In this document: in pieces, positions 2,204 through 9,684 of the stretch
Layout: the number at the start of each line of letters is the position of its first letter
How positions within the stretch are numbered: the stretch's first letter is position 1
Assembly: GCA_002400495.2 (NCBI GenBank)
Contig: NVQL02000006.1
Location: 1-64,000, forward strand
Length of the DNA stretch: 64,000 nucleotides
Direction: 5' to 3'
Origin: Alphaproteobacteria bacterium
GTDB taxonomy: Bacteria; Pseudomonadota; Alphaproteobacteria; Rhizobiales; OSC116
Program-made: the position numbers and the translations under genes
The notes under the pieces: model-generated
The model's database searches: none
Seen by the model: the letters and a program-made list of their open reading frames with translations, nothing else
What the model was told of the DNA's origin: nothing

Positions 2204-3307
2204 ATGGAAGTAGACAGCAAACTTGAGTGGGTGGATATTGAACTTCCAGACAATAAAGGTGAGATGCCGACTGCTGCACTTATGAACTCTGGTCCACCAA
2301 TTGATCCTTTGATCCGTTTAATGACATACGATTCAGGTGAGTGGGAGAAGTTTACTAACGAGTGGGTGACATATCTACCAGGAAAGTATTCTAGCGTCCA
2401 ACGTTTCACAGGTGCCGGCGATAAAGGGATTGATATCGCCGCATATATTGATGGACATCAACTATTGGGTGAATGGCATAATTACCAATGTAAACATTAT
2501 CCAAAATCGTTAGGGCCTGCGACCGCTTACTTAGAAATTGGTAAATGTCTCTGGTATTCTTTTAAAGGTCACTTTACTCCGCCATGCCGTTATTTTTTTG
2601 TCGCCCCTAGAGGCGTATCCACTCAATTAGGTTTACTTTTGGGTAATGCTAAATTGCTCAGGAGCTCTCTTTACGCTGCTTGGGAAAAAACTGTATTGAC
2701 GAAGATCACCACAACGCAAAAAATTAAGCTAGATGGAGAATTTAAGGTTTATGTTGACGCGTTTGACTTTTCTATCTTTGAAGCATCGTCTCCACTCCAA
2801 ATGATTGAGGAACATCGAAAGACACACTATTTCATACAGCGTTTTGGGGGAGGGTTGCCTGCTCGACCTAAAGTTGATCTGTTATCAGAAGCTATTGAAG
2901 CGCATGAAACTGTCTATACCAAAAAACTCTTTGTTGCCTATTCAGAGCATGCAGAGGCAATCATCCAGACGCCGAAAGATTTAGTAGGTCATTCAAAGTT
3001 AAACAAACACTTTAATCGGTCACGAGAAGCTTTCTATCACTCGGAATCTCTGCGAGTATTTGTTCGTGACAAGACAGAGCCTGGTACTTTTGAAAGCCTA
3101 CAGGACGAAGTGTGCGATGCTGTGGCTGATACATGTGACACTGATCATATTAGCGGGTACGCGCGTGTTGTAGCGGTGACAGAGAAAGCACAATCGTTGA
3201 AGCTGGACGCTCATCCACTCTCGCCAAGTACGTTCCCTCGTGACTTGAAGGGCATTTGCCATCAATTGGCCAATGATGATCGATTGAACTGGAATGATCA
3301 TGATTGA
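2204..3307 (+). CDS. ABC-3C system effector: Mrr-like PD-(D/E)XK nuclease with ABC-3C C-terminal domain
   Basis: Predicted DNA-cutting effector of an ABC three-component conflict system. The N-terminal half has the Mrr/PD-(D/E)XK pattern: an EWEKF helix at 46-50, the acidic residue in GDKGIDIAA (Asp77), then strand and core LLGEWHNYQCKHY with the QxK pair Gln95/Lys97. The C-terminal part (about 215-355) resembles the family's C-terminal domain, with a helix-rich SKLNKHFNRSREAFYHSESL segment. There is no signal or membrane segment, so it acts in the cytoplasm. GGAA lies just upstream of the ATG. The next gene overlaps its end, so all three ABC-3C genes form one translationally coupled operon. 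That the ATPase and middle component hold the nuclease off until infection is inferred from the family. Confidence 0.8.
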   Translation: MEVDSKLEWVDIELPDNKGEMPTAALMNSGPPIDPLIRLMTYDSGEWEKFTNEWVTYLPGKYSSVQRFTGAGDKGIDIAAYIDGHQLLGEWHNYQCKHYPKSLGPATAYLEIGKCLWYSFKGHFTPPCRYFFVAPRGVSTQLGLLLGNAKLLRSSLYAAWEKTVLTKITTTQKIKLDGEFKVYVDAFDFSIFEASSPLQMIEEHRKTHYFIQRFGGGLPARPKVDLLSEAIEAHETVYTKKLFVAYSEHAEAIIQTPKDLVGHSKLNKHFNRSREAFYHSESLRVFVRDKTEPGTFESLQDEVCDAVADTCDTDHISGYARVVAVTEKAQSLKLDAHPLSPSTFPRDLKGICHQLANDDRLNWNDHD

Positions 3308-3794
3308 TCGCGGGCCAATAATCTTCAATGGCACTCTGGAAGCAGGTGTAAGAGCAGTTGCAGTCTTAGTCAGTGCCTATCCAGATAGTTTTGATATTCA
3401 ACGCCTTACGGCGTACGATTATCTCCTTGTTCGCACATCAGTTTTGAATGGGCCTAAAGATCTCCACCCTTCAGCACCTATCAGAACGCCAGCAACTGAA
3501 GTTCGGCGAAAAGTCGTGCAAGATGCCATTTTTTTGATGATGACACGCGAGCTGATTGAACGAGACACAGACGAATCAGGTATTACTTATCGTGCAGGTG
3601 AAGCGGCCGCGATGTTTTTGGAATCGCTAACCACTCCTTATATCATTGCCTTAAAAGAGCGAGCTAATTGGTTGACTGCACAATTATCGGGTTATGATGA
3701 TACAACATTTGATGGTATGATGCGTAACTTTTTTGATCAGTGGATGGTTGAGTTTCAAGATGTGGAAATTATTGATGAGGAACCTATTTTATGA
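3294..3794 (+). CDS. ABC-3C system middle component
   Basis: Small linker protein of the ABC three-component system, thought to join the SMC-like ATPase to the effector. The 166 residues are mostly helical with a winged-helix-like middle. Recognisable pieces are LVSAYPDSFDIQRLTAYDYL near the start, REL-type helices at about 80-95, then a GITYRAGEAAAMFLESL strand-helix typical of middle components. There is no catalytic motif. The gene overlaps the nuclease by 14 bp and the ATPase by 4 bp (ATGA). The start could be the ATG at 3294 or the one at 3300; a GGA at 3291-3293 is better spaced for 3300. Identity rests on size, position between the two partners and these motifs. Confidence 0.75.
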   Translation: MIMIDRGPIIFNGTLEAGVRAVAVLVSAYPDSFDIQRLTAYDYLLVRTSVLNGPKDLHPSAPIRTPATEVRRKVVQDAIFLMMTRELIERDTDESGITYRAGEAAAMFLESLTTPYIIALKERANWLTAQLSGYDDTTFDGMMRNFFDQWMVEFQDVEIIDEEPIL

Positions 3795-5641
3795 TAGACG
3801 GCTTCCGAATTCACGGCCTCAGTTTTCACGGAAATAGGAAAAAACCTGCAATTGTAACGTTTGGAGCAGGCCTTAACGTCATTCATGGTGCTTCTAATAC
3901 CGGAAAGTCTTTCGTGATCGAAACCATAGATTTTATGTTAGGAGGAAAGGGCCCTCTAACAGATATGAAGGAACGTGTTGGATATGATCGGATAATGCTT
4001 GCCATTGAGGATGTAACCACCAAAGAGACGTTCACTCTTATGCGGAGTCATGAAGGAGGCGCATTTAAGCTTTTTGAGGGTCAATTCATAGAAACGCTTC
4101 CTGAGGAAGAAGGCGTGGTTCTTGCAGAAGCGCATAGTGATAAAAATACCAATAATTTATCGACTTGGCTGCTCGAAAAATTAGGGGTGGGACGCTCACT
4201 CATTCGTAAGAACAAGCTAGATGTTACCATTAATCTAAGTTTCAGACATCTTGCGCGTCTTGCGATTGTTAATGAAGAGGAAATTATTCAGAAGCGTTCG
4301 CCATTAGCAGATGGGAACTATACTGCCGATACAGCTAATTTTTCAGTATTTAAATATCTCTTAACGGGAGTTGATGATTCAGCGTTGGTTTCCCTTCGTA
4401 AAACCACGCCAGAAGAGATCAGTCGAGAAGCTCAGATTGATCTCCTTGATGATTTAATCAAAAAATATCAACGCCAAATTAAAAGGGTTGTTGGAAAATC
4501 ATCTGAACTTGAAGAGCAGGATGAAAAGCTCTGCAGCTCCTTGGCAATAAAATCTGAGCAACTCTCGCTTGCCGAAGGCACTTTTAAAGAGTTATCAGCA
4601 CGGCGACGTATATTTTATAAAAAAATTGAAGGCGACAACAATCGTTTAACGGAGGTCTCTTCCCTGCTTGAGCGTTTTCGGCTGTTGAATAAACACTATG
4701 AATCTGATCAGCAAAGACTTAAAGGGATCGAAGAAGCGGGTTCGCTTTTTGCAGTTCTTGGAAAATCCAGTTGTCCAGTATGTGGCGCTCGATCTCAAGA
4801 TCAACACGCTAAGGAAAGCTGCGAAGGTGATGTAGGCAAGATAGTTGCGGCTGCTGCAGCAGAGATAGTAAAAATCGAAAGCCGCCAAACAGAGCTTGTC
4901 GAGACACAATCAACATTAAGAAACGAAGAAAAAACACTTGAAAAACGGCTTCTTGGAGCAAAGTTTTCGCTTCGGGAGGTTTCAGACAATATTCGCACAA
5001 TAGTAGCCCCAGATCTGAAACGGCAACGGGCATCATATACAGAGCTGTCAGACAAGAGGGTAAATGTAAGAGGTGCTATTAGTCTTTATGAATCATTGAC
5101 TGATCTGGAAGAGCGAAAAAGAAAGCTTGTGGCCGAAGATTTGCAAATTACATCTAGGTCAAATATTGGCACTGTACTGCCTAGTTCCATAGTTGACGAC
5201 TTCGCGGCAATTGTTGAACAGACCCTTAAGGACTGGGGTTTTCCTAACTCAGGTCGAGTTCATTTCGATATGAAATTGAAAGATCTAGTAATTGGAGGTA
5301 AAAACCGAACTGCATATGGCAAAGGGCTAAGAGCCATTACACAAGCAGCATTTTCGATCAGTTTATTGAGATATTGTAAAAAACATGAGGGTAAGCACCC
5401 GGGTTTTGTCATTCTGGATTCTCCTCTACTTTCTTATAAAGCCCCTGAAAACGCAGAGGATGATTTGAGTGGAACTGAACTGAAAGAGCAGTTTTACAAA
5501 GATTTACAAAATACGGCGGAAGATCGCCAATTTATCATCATTGAGAATGTTCCACCTACAGAAGAGATCGCTCAATCAAATCAAACCATCGAATTTTCTG
5601 GTTCCAAAGAATTTGGTCGCTTTGGCTTATTCCCAGTTTAA
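3791..5641 (+). CDS. ABC-3C system SMC/Rad50-like ATPase (DUF3732 type)
   Basis: Large ABC-type ATPase of the three-component defence system. The Walker A loop is GASNTGKS at residues 33-40. The middle (about 200-450) is coiled coil, broken by a CxxC (SCPVCGA, Cys328/Cys331) placed like the zinc hook of Rad50. The C-terminal head has a GLRAITQAAFSISLLRYC helix in the signature region and a Walker B strand FVILDSPLLSY near 537-547, with an NTAEDRQFIIIENV strand after it. Length (616) fits DUF3732/SMC-like proteins. It is the last gene of the operon and converges with the STAND gene. By analogy with relatives it should dimerise, grip nucleic acid or a phage structure, and license the nuclease; this is family knowledge, not shown here. 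Confidence 0.85.
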   Translation: MIDGFRIHGLSFHGNRKKPAIVTFGAGLNVIHGASNTGKSFVIETIDFMLGGKGPLTDMKERVGYDRIMLAIEDVTTKETFTLMRSHEGGAFKLFEGQFIETLPEEEGVVLAEAHSDKNTNNLSTWLLEKLGVGRSLIRKNKLDVTINLSFRHLARLAIVNEEEIIQKRSPLADGNYTADTANFSVFKYLLTGVDDSALVSLRKTTPEEISREAQIDLLDDLIKKYQRQIKRVVGKSSELEEQDEKLCSSLAIKSEQLSLAEGTFKELSARRRIFYKKIEGDNNRLTEVSSLLERFRLLNKHYESDQQRLKGIEEAGSLFAVLGKSSCPVCGARSQDQHAKESCEGDVGKIVAAAAAEIVKIESRQTELVETQSTLRNEEKTLEKRLLGAKFSLREVSDNIRTIVAPDLKRQRASYTELSDKRVNVRGAISLYESLTDLEERKRKLVAEDLQITSRSNIGTVLPSSIVDDFAAIVEQTLKDWGFPNSGRVHFDMKLKDLVIGGKNRTAYGKGLRAITQAAFSISLLRYCKKHEGKHPGFVILDSPLLSYKAPENAEDDLSGTELKEQFYKDLQNTAEDRQFIIIENVPPTEEIAQSNQTIEFSGSKEFGRFGLFPV

Positions 5642-5745: not shown

Positions 5746-8700
5746 CTAGAAATTAGAATTAAATTTCTCAGCAATATTATTCTTTTCTTCTCGACTTATT
5801 TGGTATTCAATTTCACTTTCAATATGACTAATAAAGTCCTGAGCCCAATCTTTTACTAAAGAATTATTATATTCTAATAATTTGACTATTGCCTTTTTCT
5901 CTGCCTCTAAATACGGGACTATTGAGCCTGACCATGATCGTGTGTGAAGTTTATTTTTAATTCTATCCCTAAAGCTCTCTTTTTCTCCATAGACCGAAAT
6001 TAATTTAACTAAAAGTGAGTTTACTGTTTTTTCTTCACTATTATTGCTATTCGTTTCGTTAAAAGGGTTTGATGAGGACATGTCGTTTTCAAAAATGGGA
6101 AGAGATTCTGTAACTATTTTTAATGCGGCTTCAGATTTACACCAATCTACAATCCATTGGCGATTAACGAATGTGAATATACTTTTTTTGCCAGGGCGTG
6201 CAAACATGCCTCCATCTAAAATGGAGCTAATTCGATAATTTGTTTCTGGTTCAAAACTAAGTATTTTCTTCGACACTACTGGCCAAATATCATCTGCAAA
6301 ATACTCAAATGCGCTTATTAGTATTGGATTTATGTAATCTGAAGAGTATGTATAATCAATTTTCTGTGCGTATTTTTGGTCTAGGAAATGAACGCATAAA
6401 TCTTCGGCAAATTTATAACCCCCATTTTTGAGTAATAATTCGACTGATTTCTTCCAGTTGTGGTTTGAGATCATACCTTTTTCTGTTTCACCATTGAAAG
6501 ATGCTTCGAAAATTATTTCCTTTAAAACTGGGTCAATGATTTCTTGATTATAATCAGAATTCATAATGTAGAAATTTAAGTTTTCTAGTGCAACCCATAC
6601 GCCTACGCTATCTATTCTCATTATTCTTTTACAAAATTTAGCCATATCCTCTGATGGAATTTTTTTTGTGAACTGTCCATGGCTTAATGAAAAGGCCGTG
6701 CTAGAGCTAACGACTCCTGTTTCCATTAAATAGGCATAGTTTGATAAATGTTCACTAGTCAATGTCCCGCTTCTAATGATATATGGATAGCATTTTTGCA
6801 ACTTACCATCTGTTGAGAATAATTTCATGGTTTCTAACCACAATGGTTCATTCTTTGAAAATAAGCCGTTTAGGAAACCAACAACGAAACTGCAATTTAA
6901 TTCTTCAGTATTTCGGATTGATTTTAAAAGTTCTTCGAGAAATTCGTCAATTTTTATGTTTTGAGCAAATTCTGAACCAAACTCCCAAGATTTTGTTTGA
7001 ATCTTAAAAGAAAGCAATAACTCAAGGTGTGGTATTAAGCTCGTTGGTTTTTTTGCAATTTCCTTAGCAAGCGACCTTGCCTTTTGCGCAGCAATATCAA
7101 TATATTCTCCATCGTCAGATTCTGTATAATCCCATGATGGGTCCAAAACTATATATTTAAGTTTTTTATCTATGTTATTATCCGATGGGGCTAAGATCTT
7201 TTTCCAACTAGTAAGCGCATTAATTTGGGGGGGGGATAAGTCTGAGCTATCTCTTTCCAATGTTTCATTTATTGTCTTATACGCAGATGGCCAAAAAGTT
7301 CCTTGAAGAGATGTGATTTTTTTAACCGTTACATCAAGGTCATTTATCATGTCGACGTTGATTAAATTGCCTAATTCATTTCCGATTATGACCTTTAATT
7401 CCTCTGTGTTTCTTTCCTTTTCAATTAGATCAACAGTTATTCTTAAAAGCGATTTCTGATATGAAAATATTTCATTATATGTTTTGGGCTTAAATTCTTC
7501 AATTTCTTGTTTTGTTCCTTGATTTTCTGCCCCAACAGTCCTTCCCCAGCCTTGATGCGAAAGACCTGCTTCTATTGCCTTTACTACTAGAGAAACCGCA
7601 TTTTTGTCTGAAATAGAAACAACGCTTTTTAGGAACTCCAACCGTGTGTCATAATTAACTACGGTTCCAGATAAATGGGTTCTGAATAATTGTGAAAATA
7701 GCCCACTCGCATTATTTGAATAGGATTCAGTTTCATTCTGGGCCAGTTTAAATATGCACCAAGCCGCATCCATAAAGCTATCTTTATGGAAAACTAACAT
7801 TTCCAATGCCCATATGAAATTCCGCCTTACCTCGCGATCTATATCGAAGATCTCTTTATCAGAAAGATTTTTAATCACCCGAAATAATAGGTTGCTTGTT
7901 GGCTTAGGGTTCACTTCTACTATTGAGCGGAATATCTTAGAACCCTTGTTTGATAATAAGAATTCCGCTTGTCCAAAAGGGCTTGAATCATCACAGAGAC
8001 TTTCAACAAAATCCTGTACCTTTTGCGATCTATCTAAATACCTAATTTGATAGCAAAAACTTTCTATCATAGCTTCAGGAATTTCAGCAATCAGCTTTCT
8101 TTTCATATCATTTGTTGTTTTTTCCCACCAATCGGATGCCAATGATATAGCAAAAGGTTTGGGGATAATTCTCGCGAATTGCCCTCCTGTATCAATAATT
8201 TGATGTGTTTGAAAATTTGTTATTAGCTTACTAAAGTCTATAAGACTTGCTCCAGATAGATCTAAAATAAATGCTACTTGCTCTGAATCTTTCTGAGGAG
8301 TTCCTTCATATTCAAAGCTATTGAACAATGAACAAACCTCTAAAATATTTCGACGTGTTTCGTTTAACTTCCCTCCAATATTCACTAGTTTTTCTACAAA
8401 ATCATTATCTGCCAAATTGTCTGGAACACTAATCTCACTATTAGAAAATTGATTTGATATTAAAATAGCAAGCAAAGGGTATCCCTCAACATATTTAGCA
8501 AGCTTTTGAATATTAGGTTCAGAAAAATCGGGTAACTCACGTCTTATTATTTCTATGATGCTTTCTGTTTCAAGGGGTGTTAATTTGATATGAGGCGAGT
8601 TACCCTCCGTTTTATGTTCATGATCAACTGTAATTATTTCTATTTTTGAAGGGCATTCACTTAATTCACGATCAATGAAGCCGTGTAGAATAGAAGAGCA

Positions 8701-9684
8701 GTTTTCTACTACGATTTTGCAATCGATTTTATCTCTAATAGCTAGCTTTATGCTTTTTTCGATCTCAGCTTCTGAATCCCTTACTTTGAAAATCAATATA
8801 TTTTGATCTTCCGTGGCTCCTTCACTTTTGAGGTAATCGACAATTAATCGTGTTTTACCTAACCCAGACAAGCCTGTTATTCTTACTAAGTTTTTTTCTT
8901 GGTTGAGTGAATCCCTTAAGGCGCGTTCAGCCTCTAATCTACTCTTGTCATAAGCCAAAGGTTTAGTGTGAGATCTGTTTTCATGAAGAATCCACTCTTT
9001 ATAATAACAAGAAGAAACGTTTTCGTATTTAGTCAGCTTTTTTTTTGAATTAATGTGATTGAGAACCCAGTTAAATGAAGCATCCATGGTATTCGTCGGT
9101 TTTACGATACTAGTATGATCTGCCCCAGTTATTGTTTCTGTATTCCTAAACGATCCTTGAGCACTGTTGACATTTACGATTCTATCCTCATCGCCAACCA
9201 AATTCAATATATTATACTTGAATTGGAAGTCCGATTTATTAAAGTAAGCATTGAGCATTTCAACAGCATTACCATCTCGTTTCAATGCTCTTAGTTTTAA
9301 GCCTCTAAAAGCAATGATTTTTAACGCCGATGCCAATTGTGCGCCATTATGAGGAACGGCAAAAAATATTACTCTAGATATGTTAATGGACAAGGCTTCT
9401 AAATCAACATTAACTAACATTTGCTTTATAATTAGCCCGCCCAAACTATGGCCAATTATTATTATTTCGTCATTCTCGTGGTCGGTATTTAATTTTATAA
9501 AAGATAATAAACCTTGGGCTAGATTTGCTATAGACGTGCTTTTGCCGATCAGCGGCCAATAAAAAGATTTGTAACTAAACAGCTTGACTTCACAGTCCAG
9601 TTTATCTCTTAGAAGCTTAGGAAAGTCAGCCCAAGTTTCGTCACTACCACCAAACCCGTGTACAAATATAATTTTTTTTGTCAT
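5746..9684 (-). CDS. Alpha/beta hydrolase-STAND NTPase, putative NLR-like anti-phage protein
   Basis: A 1312-residue modular protein. Residues 1-210 are an alpha/beta hydrolase of the SERAC1/lipase-like kind: opening IIFVHGFGG, nucleophile elbow GHSLGG (Ser80), an acidic residue in VGDEDRIV (Asp165 or Asp167) and His190 in GADHTS complete a triad. A P-loop NTPase follows, with Walker A GLSGLGKT at 271-278 and a KIVVEN strand near 320 in the Walker B position. This arrangement is typical of STAND/NACHT-type switches. The remaining 750 or so residues are helical and repeat-like, as in sensor regions. No membrane segment is seen. By analogy with bacterial NLR-like proteins the C-terminus would detect a phage component and activate the hydrolase. 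A nine-C run on the coding strand near residue 817 could cause frameshifts. Confidence 0.8.
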   Translation of the reverse strand: MTKKIIFVHGFGGSDETWADFPKLLRDKLDCEVKLFSYKSFYWPLIGKSTSIANLAQGLLSFIKLNTDHENDEIIIIGHSLGGLIIKQMLVNVDLEALSINISRVIFFAVPHNGAQLASALKIIAFRGLKLRALKRDGNAVEMLNAYFNKSDFQFKYNILNLVGDEDRIVNVNSAQGSFRNTETITGADHTSIVKPTNTMDASFNWVLNHINSKKKLTKYENVSSCYYKEWILHENRSHTKPLAYDKSRLEAERALRDSLNQEKNLVRITGLSGLGKTRLIVDYLKSEGATEDQNILIFKVRDSEAEIEKSIKLAIRDKIDCKIVVENCSSILHGFIDRELSECPSKIEIITVDHEHKTEGNSPHIKLTPLETESIIEIIRRELPDFSEPNIQKLAKYVEGYPLLAILISNQFSNSEISVPDNLADNDFVEKLVNIGGKLNETRRNILEVCSLFNSFEYEGTPQKDSEQVAFILDLSGASLIDFSKLITNFQTHQIIDTGGQFARIIPKPFAISLASDWWEKTTNDMKRKLIAEIPEAMIESFCYQIRYLDRSQKVQDFVESLCDDSSPFGQAEFLLSNKGSKIFRSIVEVNPKPTSNLLFRVIKNLSDKEIFDIDREVRRNFIWALEMLVFHKDSFMDAAWCIFKLAQNETESYSNNASGLFSQLFRTHLSGTVVNYDTRLEFLKSVVSISDKNAVSLVVKAIEAGLSHQGWGRTVGAENQGTKQEIEEFKPKTYNEIFSYQKSLLRITVDLIEKERNTEELKVIIGNELGNLINVDMINDLDVTVKKITSLQGTFWPSAYKTINETLERDSSDLSPPQINALTSWKKILAPSDNNIDKKLKYIVLDPSWDYTESDDGEYIDIAAQKARSLAKEIAKKPTSLIPHLELLLSFKIQTKSWEFGSEFAQNIKIDEFLEELLKSIRNTEELNCSFVVGFLNGLFSKNEPLWLETMKLFSTDGKLQKCYPYIIRSGTLTSEHLSNYAYLMETGVVSSSTAFSLSHGQFTKKIPSEDMAKFCKRIMRIDSVGVWVALENLNFYIMNSDYNQEIIDPVLKEIIFEASFNGETEKGMISNHNWKKSVELLLKNGGYKFAEDLCVHFLDQKYAQKIDYTYSSDYINPILISAFEYFADDIWPVVSKKILSFEPETNYRISSILDGGMFARPGKKSIFTFVNRQWIVDWCKSEAALKIVTESLPIFENDMSSSNPFNETNSNNSEEKTVNSLLVKLISVYGEKESFRDRIKNKLHTRSWSGSIVPYLEAEKKAIVKLLEYNNSLVKDWAQDFISHIESEIEYQISREEKNNIAEKFNSNF

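Follow-up and report, generated by a model that had tools for sequence, protein, structure and literature searches.

The gene at 5746-9684 on the minus strand of the window (the whole 64,000-nucleotide stretch of DNA analysed here) likely encodes a single-protein NLR-like (STAND) immune receptor, in which infection-triggered assembly would switch on a cell-harming (phospho)lipase. At the level of sequence and predicted structure, the protein displays an NLR-type architecture of effector, switch and sensor, kinship to a defence family obtained by selection, and membership of a group in which effectors are exchangeable. The open reading frame starts with ATG, runs uninterrupted for 1312 aa and is present as a single copy in its genome. 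Pfam matches and structural models gave the tripartite plan of STAND/NOD proteins, in which an N-terminal alpha/beta hydrolase effector (aa 1-217; 9034-9684) is joined by a linker with an invariant Trp231 (aa 218-244; 8953-9033) to a central STAND/NOD ATPase with a winged-helix region (aa 245-546; 8047-8952), followed by a HEAT/ARM-like helical solenoid as the putative sensor (aa 547-1312; 5749-8046), all on the minus strand. The initial annotation had described a giant reading frame, without its strand, that joins a complete Ser-Asp-His hydrolase to a P-loop switch (GLSGLGKT) and a helical C-terminus of about 750 residues; the minus strand can now be added, and this layout is borne out by the analyses below.

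We examined the hydrolase domain by Pfam, by an alignment of 23 hydrolase-type proteins, which also defined the linker, and by structural modelling. Over aa 5-180, the domain matched DUF676 (E 1.8e-7; 31.3 bits against a cut-off of 20.3), Abhydrolase_6 and PGAP1, all of which passed their cut-offs, and Palm_thioest was also among its Pfam matches. His9, Gly10, Ser80 (the nucleophile of the GHSLGG motif) and His190 are invariant in the alignment, and the acid position, Asp167 in the window protein, is occupied by D or E in 22 of the 23 proteins, the exception being a P in L058. These residues form a predicted Ser80-Asp167-His190 triad and a predicted oxyanion site, His9-Gly10, and together with the fold they identify the domain as a DUF676/PGAP1-like alpha/beta hydrolase. 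When the hydrolase part of an AlphaFold2 model of aa 1-560 (mean pLDDT 82.5, with aa 40-48 and 115-132 poorly modelled) was compared with known structures by VIA-align, the best match was the phospholipase PlaB (Z 22.2, rmsd 2.3, 207 aligned residues, 20% identity), and the next entry outside PlaB followed at Z 19.0, about 3 Z units lower. The fold match with PlaB points towards a lipid substrate without proving one. It is possible, if somewhat doubtful, that the same receptor architecture carries a thioesterase, amidase, esterase or other small-molecule hydrolase, in which case the killing route would differ, for example by depletion of an acyl cofactor or metabolite. Consistent with this, Foldseek also ranked the thioesterase TesA high, many esterases and lipases lay at Z 17-19 in VIA-align, and the DUF676, PGAP1 and Palm_thioest matches span esterases and thioesterases; however, PlaB stands clear of all these entries with the whole domain covered, and lipase-type effectors are commonly used by immune systems. 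A (phospho)lipase effector is thus the reading that we prefer.

The switch region contains a Walker A motif, GLSGLGKT, at aa 271-278, a Walker B-like motif, VVEN, at aa 325-328 and a GxP motif, GYP, at aa 401-403. The Walker B acid is Glu327 (VVENC), while Asp is found here in most of the family sharing the ATPase and sensor, hereafter the chassis; Glu also occurs in several hydrolase-type relatives. In VIA-align, aa 245-546 matched the NB-ARC of NRC1 (Z 13.3), the STAND protein 6mfv (Z 12.4) and Apaf-1 (Z 12.1) as well as NLRP7, and Foldseek retrieved 6mfv (E 2e-9), SAMD9, plant resistosomes, CED-4 and Avs3. The Walker A and GxP motifs and the winged-helix region, placed as in NB-ARC/NACHT proteins in the models, point to a STAND/NOD ATPase. 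At the sequence level, a phmmer search of the window protein against the PDB returned chance hits only, and profiles of the chassis and of the nuclease and TIR-like N-termini found in its relatives retrieved no solved-structure relative.

Modelling of the C-terminal part, which had been proposed as a check in the initial annotation, gave an NLR-type ATPase with its P-loop fold kept, followed by a HEAT-like solenoid of about 766 aa (mean pLDDT 89.4 for the AlphaFold2 model of aa 245-1312). In VIA-align, aa 547-1312 gave matches to HEAT/ARM solenoids, transportin-3 and the PP2A A subunit among them; since Z scores of 10-13 among helical repeats can reflect a common arrangement alone, "HEAT-like" here denotes shape rather than descent. 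The most conserved part of the solenoid is aa 547-700 (NNASGLFSQLF...LSGT), in which the window protein is 53% identical to the rest of its clade, compared with 30-38% elsewhere in the solenoid, indicating that the putative sensor is not uniformly variable. The C-terminus had been thought to belong to no familiar family, but this does not hold: the only PADLOC match of the window protein was PD-Lambda-4_A (PDLC03991), whose profile positions 221-1275 of 1283 aligned with aa 251-1303 (E 1.2e-50). PD-Lambda-4 reportedly goes back to Vassallo et al. 2022. PD-Lambda systems were isolated by functional anti-phage selection in E. coli (PMC9519451), and PD-lambda-4 has been placed among P-loop NTPase systems in a review (PMC10952713). 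Given this origin, the match places the sensor region in a family with an established link to defence. The proposal of an NLR-like candidate phage sensor made in the initial annotation is partly supported: it stands in its tripartite plan of effector, STAND/NOD switch and solenoid, as modelled, and in its defence context, and falls in its claim of a C-terminus of no known family.

Relatives of the chassis were recovered from several sources. Searches of viral and genome contigs with the window protein as a single sequence found none, but alignment-based searches of these contigs identified 17 viral-contig loci and 80 genome loci, and a tblastn search of plasmids gave 43 records, the majority of which aligned only from about aa 244 onward. 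In searches of phage and plasmid records, the window protein itself was encoded in no phage record and its DNA was present on no plasmid. Full-length alignments of 21 and then 89 members revealed one colinear chassis of ATPase and sensor of about 1060 aa, in which the window protein is 16-38% identical to its relatives. The chassis is spread over Pseudomonadota, Bacteroidota, Bacillota, Thermodesulfobacteriota, cyanobacterial plasmids and archaea. On a Haloarcula plasmid (L023, 622-7247), the ATPase and the sensor are encoded by two separate genes, a short distance after an SbcC/MukB-like gene that has small partners.

The N-termini of 108 chassis proteins fall into three types, namely a PD-(D/E)XK-like nuclease (61 proteins, with D52, D56, Q79 and K81 invariant), an alpha/beta hydrolase (28) and a weakly TIR-like "FYSWQ" domain of Bacteroidota (19). 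The assignment of the last type is based on PF10137, which was matched in 5 of the 19 proteins with a best E of 8.5e-5, and the one match scored against the cut-off fell below it. This Bacteroidota domain starts with MKIKIFYSWQ and has F6, W9, Q10, D77 and E104 invariant (L103, L105, L109-L115, L117, L119, L120, L123, L125-L128, L130 and L132), and judging from its sequence, it may be an undescribed effector. One chassis relative, L026, has an Avs4-type N-terminus (E 2e-67). The same hydrolase type also starts other large proteins of 986-1552 aa without a chassis match (G044, G206, G360 and G367), hinting at further hydrolase fusions.

In a mixture-model chassis tree of 46 rows, at least four changes of the hydrolase/nuclease label were required, each imposed by branches whose SH-aLRT reaches 95 or more, compared with about 16 changes for shuffled labels. 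Because the SH-aLRT values came from a quick search with no bootstrap, that several switches took place is more certain than the precise order of branching, and the tree does not reveal in which direction they went. L068, a hydrolase by sequence, is labelled so in this tree and as a nuclease in the tree of 108 rows. The window protein sits in an all-hydrolase clade of eight with a support of 100. A group of plasmid proteins (L003, L004 and L027) has a chassis far from that of the window protein, yet their hydrolase domains are 24-29% identical to its hydrolase domain. These sequence comparisons reveal a broadly spread bacterial NLR chassis with repeatedly exchanged effectors, a lipase-like hydrolase among them. 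With related sensors joined to different effectors, recognition of the trigger and the means of halting the cell can be studied separately.

The surroundings of the gene were also analysed. The ABC-3C system and the trb tail described in the initial annotation are both present: the former, at 2204-5641 on the plus strand, was identified by Pfam and PADLOC as a Lamassu operon, LmuA-LmuC-LmuB (PADLOC E 1e-114, 4e-45 and 4e-180, respectively), and the latter is a TrbI C-terminus at 2-445 (Pfam) cut off by the contig end. The STAND gene is convergent with the Lamassu operon, which is a separate system, and polysaccharide-synthesis genes lie on its opposite side. Immediately upstream of the Lamassu operon, at 1298-2068 on the plus strand, is a gene for a 256-aa protein without any Pfam or NCBIfam match and with a PADLOC match at chance level. 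The gene at 765-1238 on the minus strand encodes a 157-aa protein with a marginal PARP/KptA match (PF00644, E 3.2e-6, barely over the cut-off), possibly an ADP-ribosyl enzyme adjoining the Lamassu operon. A search of 397 genomes from the order to which the window belongs recovered the complete hydrolase-ATPase fusion in a single one, the genome of the window, and five other genomes of the same genus had no match; such a patchy distribution is expected of a horizontally moving defence gene. Kinship to PD-Lambda-4_A, effector swapping, the Lamassu operon next door and the type I restriction-modification (RM) neighbours of relatives together place the protein in a defence context.

In raw neighbour counts, type I RM genes lie within 5 kb of the chassis gene in 13 of 73 genomic relatives, across all three effector types. 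In four of them (L054, L059, L090 and L123), with hydrolase and TIR-like versions, the gene is flanked by hsdS and hsdR at distances of 0-21 bases, giving the order hsdM-hsdS-STAND-hsdR (1859-11804 in L054). Beside the STAND gene of L055 (5748-12326), which is intact, only short pieces of hsdS (160 aa) and hsdR (634 aa) are present, as if the RM system had decayed while the STAND gene stayed. PrrC is encoded within a type I RM operon of its own and becomes active once a phage has disabled restriction. By the same logic, the chassis might act as a guard that watches over host restriction, or over another core process disabled by phages, instead of sensing phage proteins directly, which the nesting and the neighbour counts would fit. 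We consider this unlikely, however, because most relatives, the window protein included, have no type I RM neighbour, the tested REase_I model had no match in the genome of the window, and nesting can be plain defence-island clustering. If the chassis were a guard after all, the hsdS-STAND-hsdR operons would represent an NLR-type equivalent of the PrrC arrangement, into which evolution plugs any killer enzyme at hand, be it a nuclease, a lipase-like hydrolase or a TIR-like domain; the RM operons that hold the chassis make this idea testable.

For the preferred reading of an immune receptor with a (phospho)lipase effector, we propose a mechanism by analogy with other STAND proteins, from which oligomerisation, trigger and substrate are inferred. 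The resting protein would be closed. Upon infection, the solenoid would meet a cue, which could come from the phage, as one of its proteins, or from a host protein that has been disturbed, and ATP-dependent assembly would then gather the hydrolase domains and switch them on. The active hydrolase would attack a host lipid, most likely a phospholipid, or another acyl ester, and the cell would be stopped before phage release, resulting in abortive infection. In the literature outside the main Avs, bNACHT and NLR-like diversification studies, we found no functional assay of the window variant or of any hydrolase-type relative. A non-defence role of the STAND signalling ATPase, in regulation, development or self/non-self recognition between bacteria, is very improbable: eukaryotic hydrolase-STAND proteins do exist outside phage defence, as in fungal NLRs (PMC9815663), but the patchy distribution, effector swapping, kinship to a selected anti-phage system and defence neighbours all speak against it.

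Among known systems, Avs and bNACHT proteins share with the window protein the tripartite plan of effector, STAND ATPase and sensor, and Avs3 was retrieved by Foldseek with its switch. The protein would work like an NLR or Avs protein; in contrast, its sensor, of the PD-Lambda-4_A family, is a HEAT-like solenoid. Identity with Avs or bNACHT by profile was rejected, since no model of Avs types 1-5 in PADLOC and no NACHT model in Pfam or PADLOC matched the window protein up to E 1. Fungal NLRs belong to a different kingdom and, as far as is known, have sensors different from that of the window protein. By description, in those with SesB-like, DUF676 and PGAP1 N-termini, a STAND switch bears an effector of the same superfamily as here; alpha/beta hydrolases rank among the four largest effector families of fungal NLRs, and these N-termini have been tied indirectly to regulated cell death (PMC9815663). 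The same effector type is also found in Lamassu, in which alpha/beta hydrolases serve as LmuA effectors (PMC10586767), and the LmuA model PDLC03851 matched the hydrolase domains of plasmid relatives (E 4e-5 for L004). Lamassu, however, senses via the SMC-like LmuB, whereas the window protein has a STAND ATPase.

The closest known system is PD-Lambda-4, with whose A component the ATPase and C-terminal sensor of the window protein are colinear over aa 251-1303. The two differ at the N-terminus, which is a hydrolase in the window protein (aa 1-217) and leaves about the first 200 positions of the profile, its N-terminal effector, unmatched; this first part of the profile matches nuclease-type relatives (L002 and L006). 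Moreover, the tested PD-Lambda-4 system has a second component, B, and none was detected for the window gene: PD-Lambda-4_B (PDLC03992) was found neither in the genome of the window (91.6% complete, 122 contigs, with the contig extending on both sides of the gene) nor in the genomes or records of 20 relatives carrying the chassis, indicating that the chassis usually occurs without it. The lack of this partner of the tested system also counts against the immune-receptor reading preferred above. Identity with the PD-Lambda-4 system was thus rejected on account of the different effector and the missing partner. The chassis itself is already known as PD-Lambda-4_A, and the hydrolase-bearing form described here is a variant of it.
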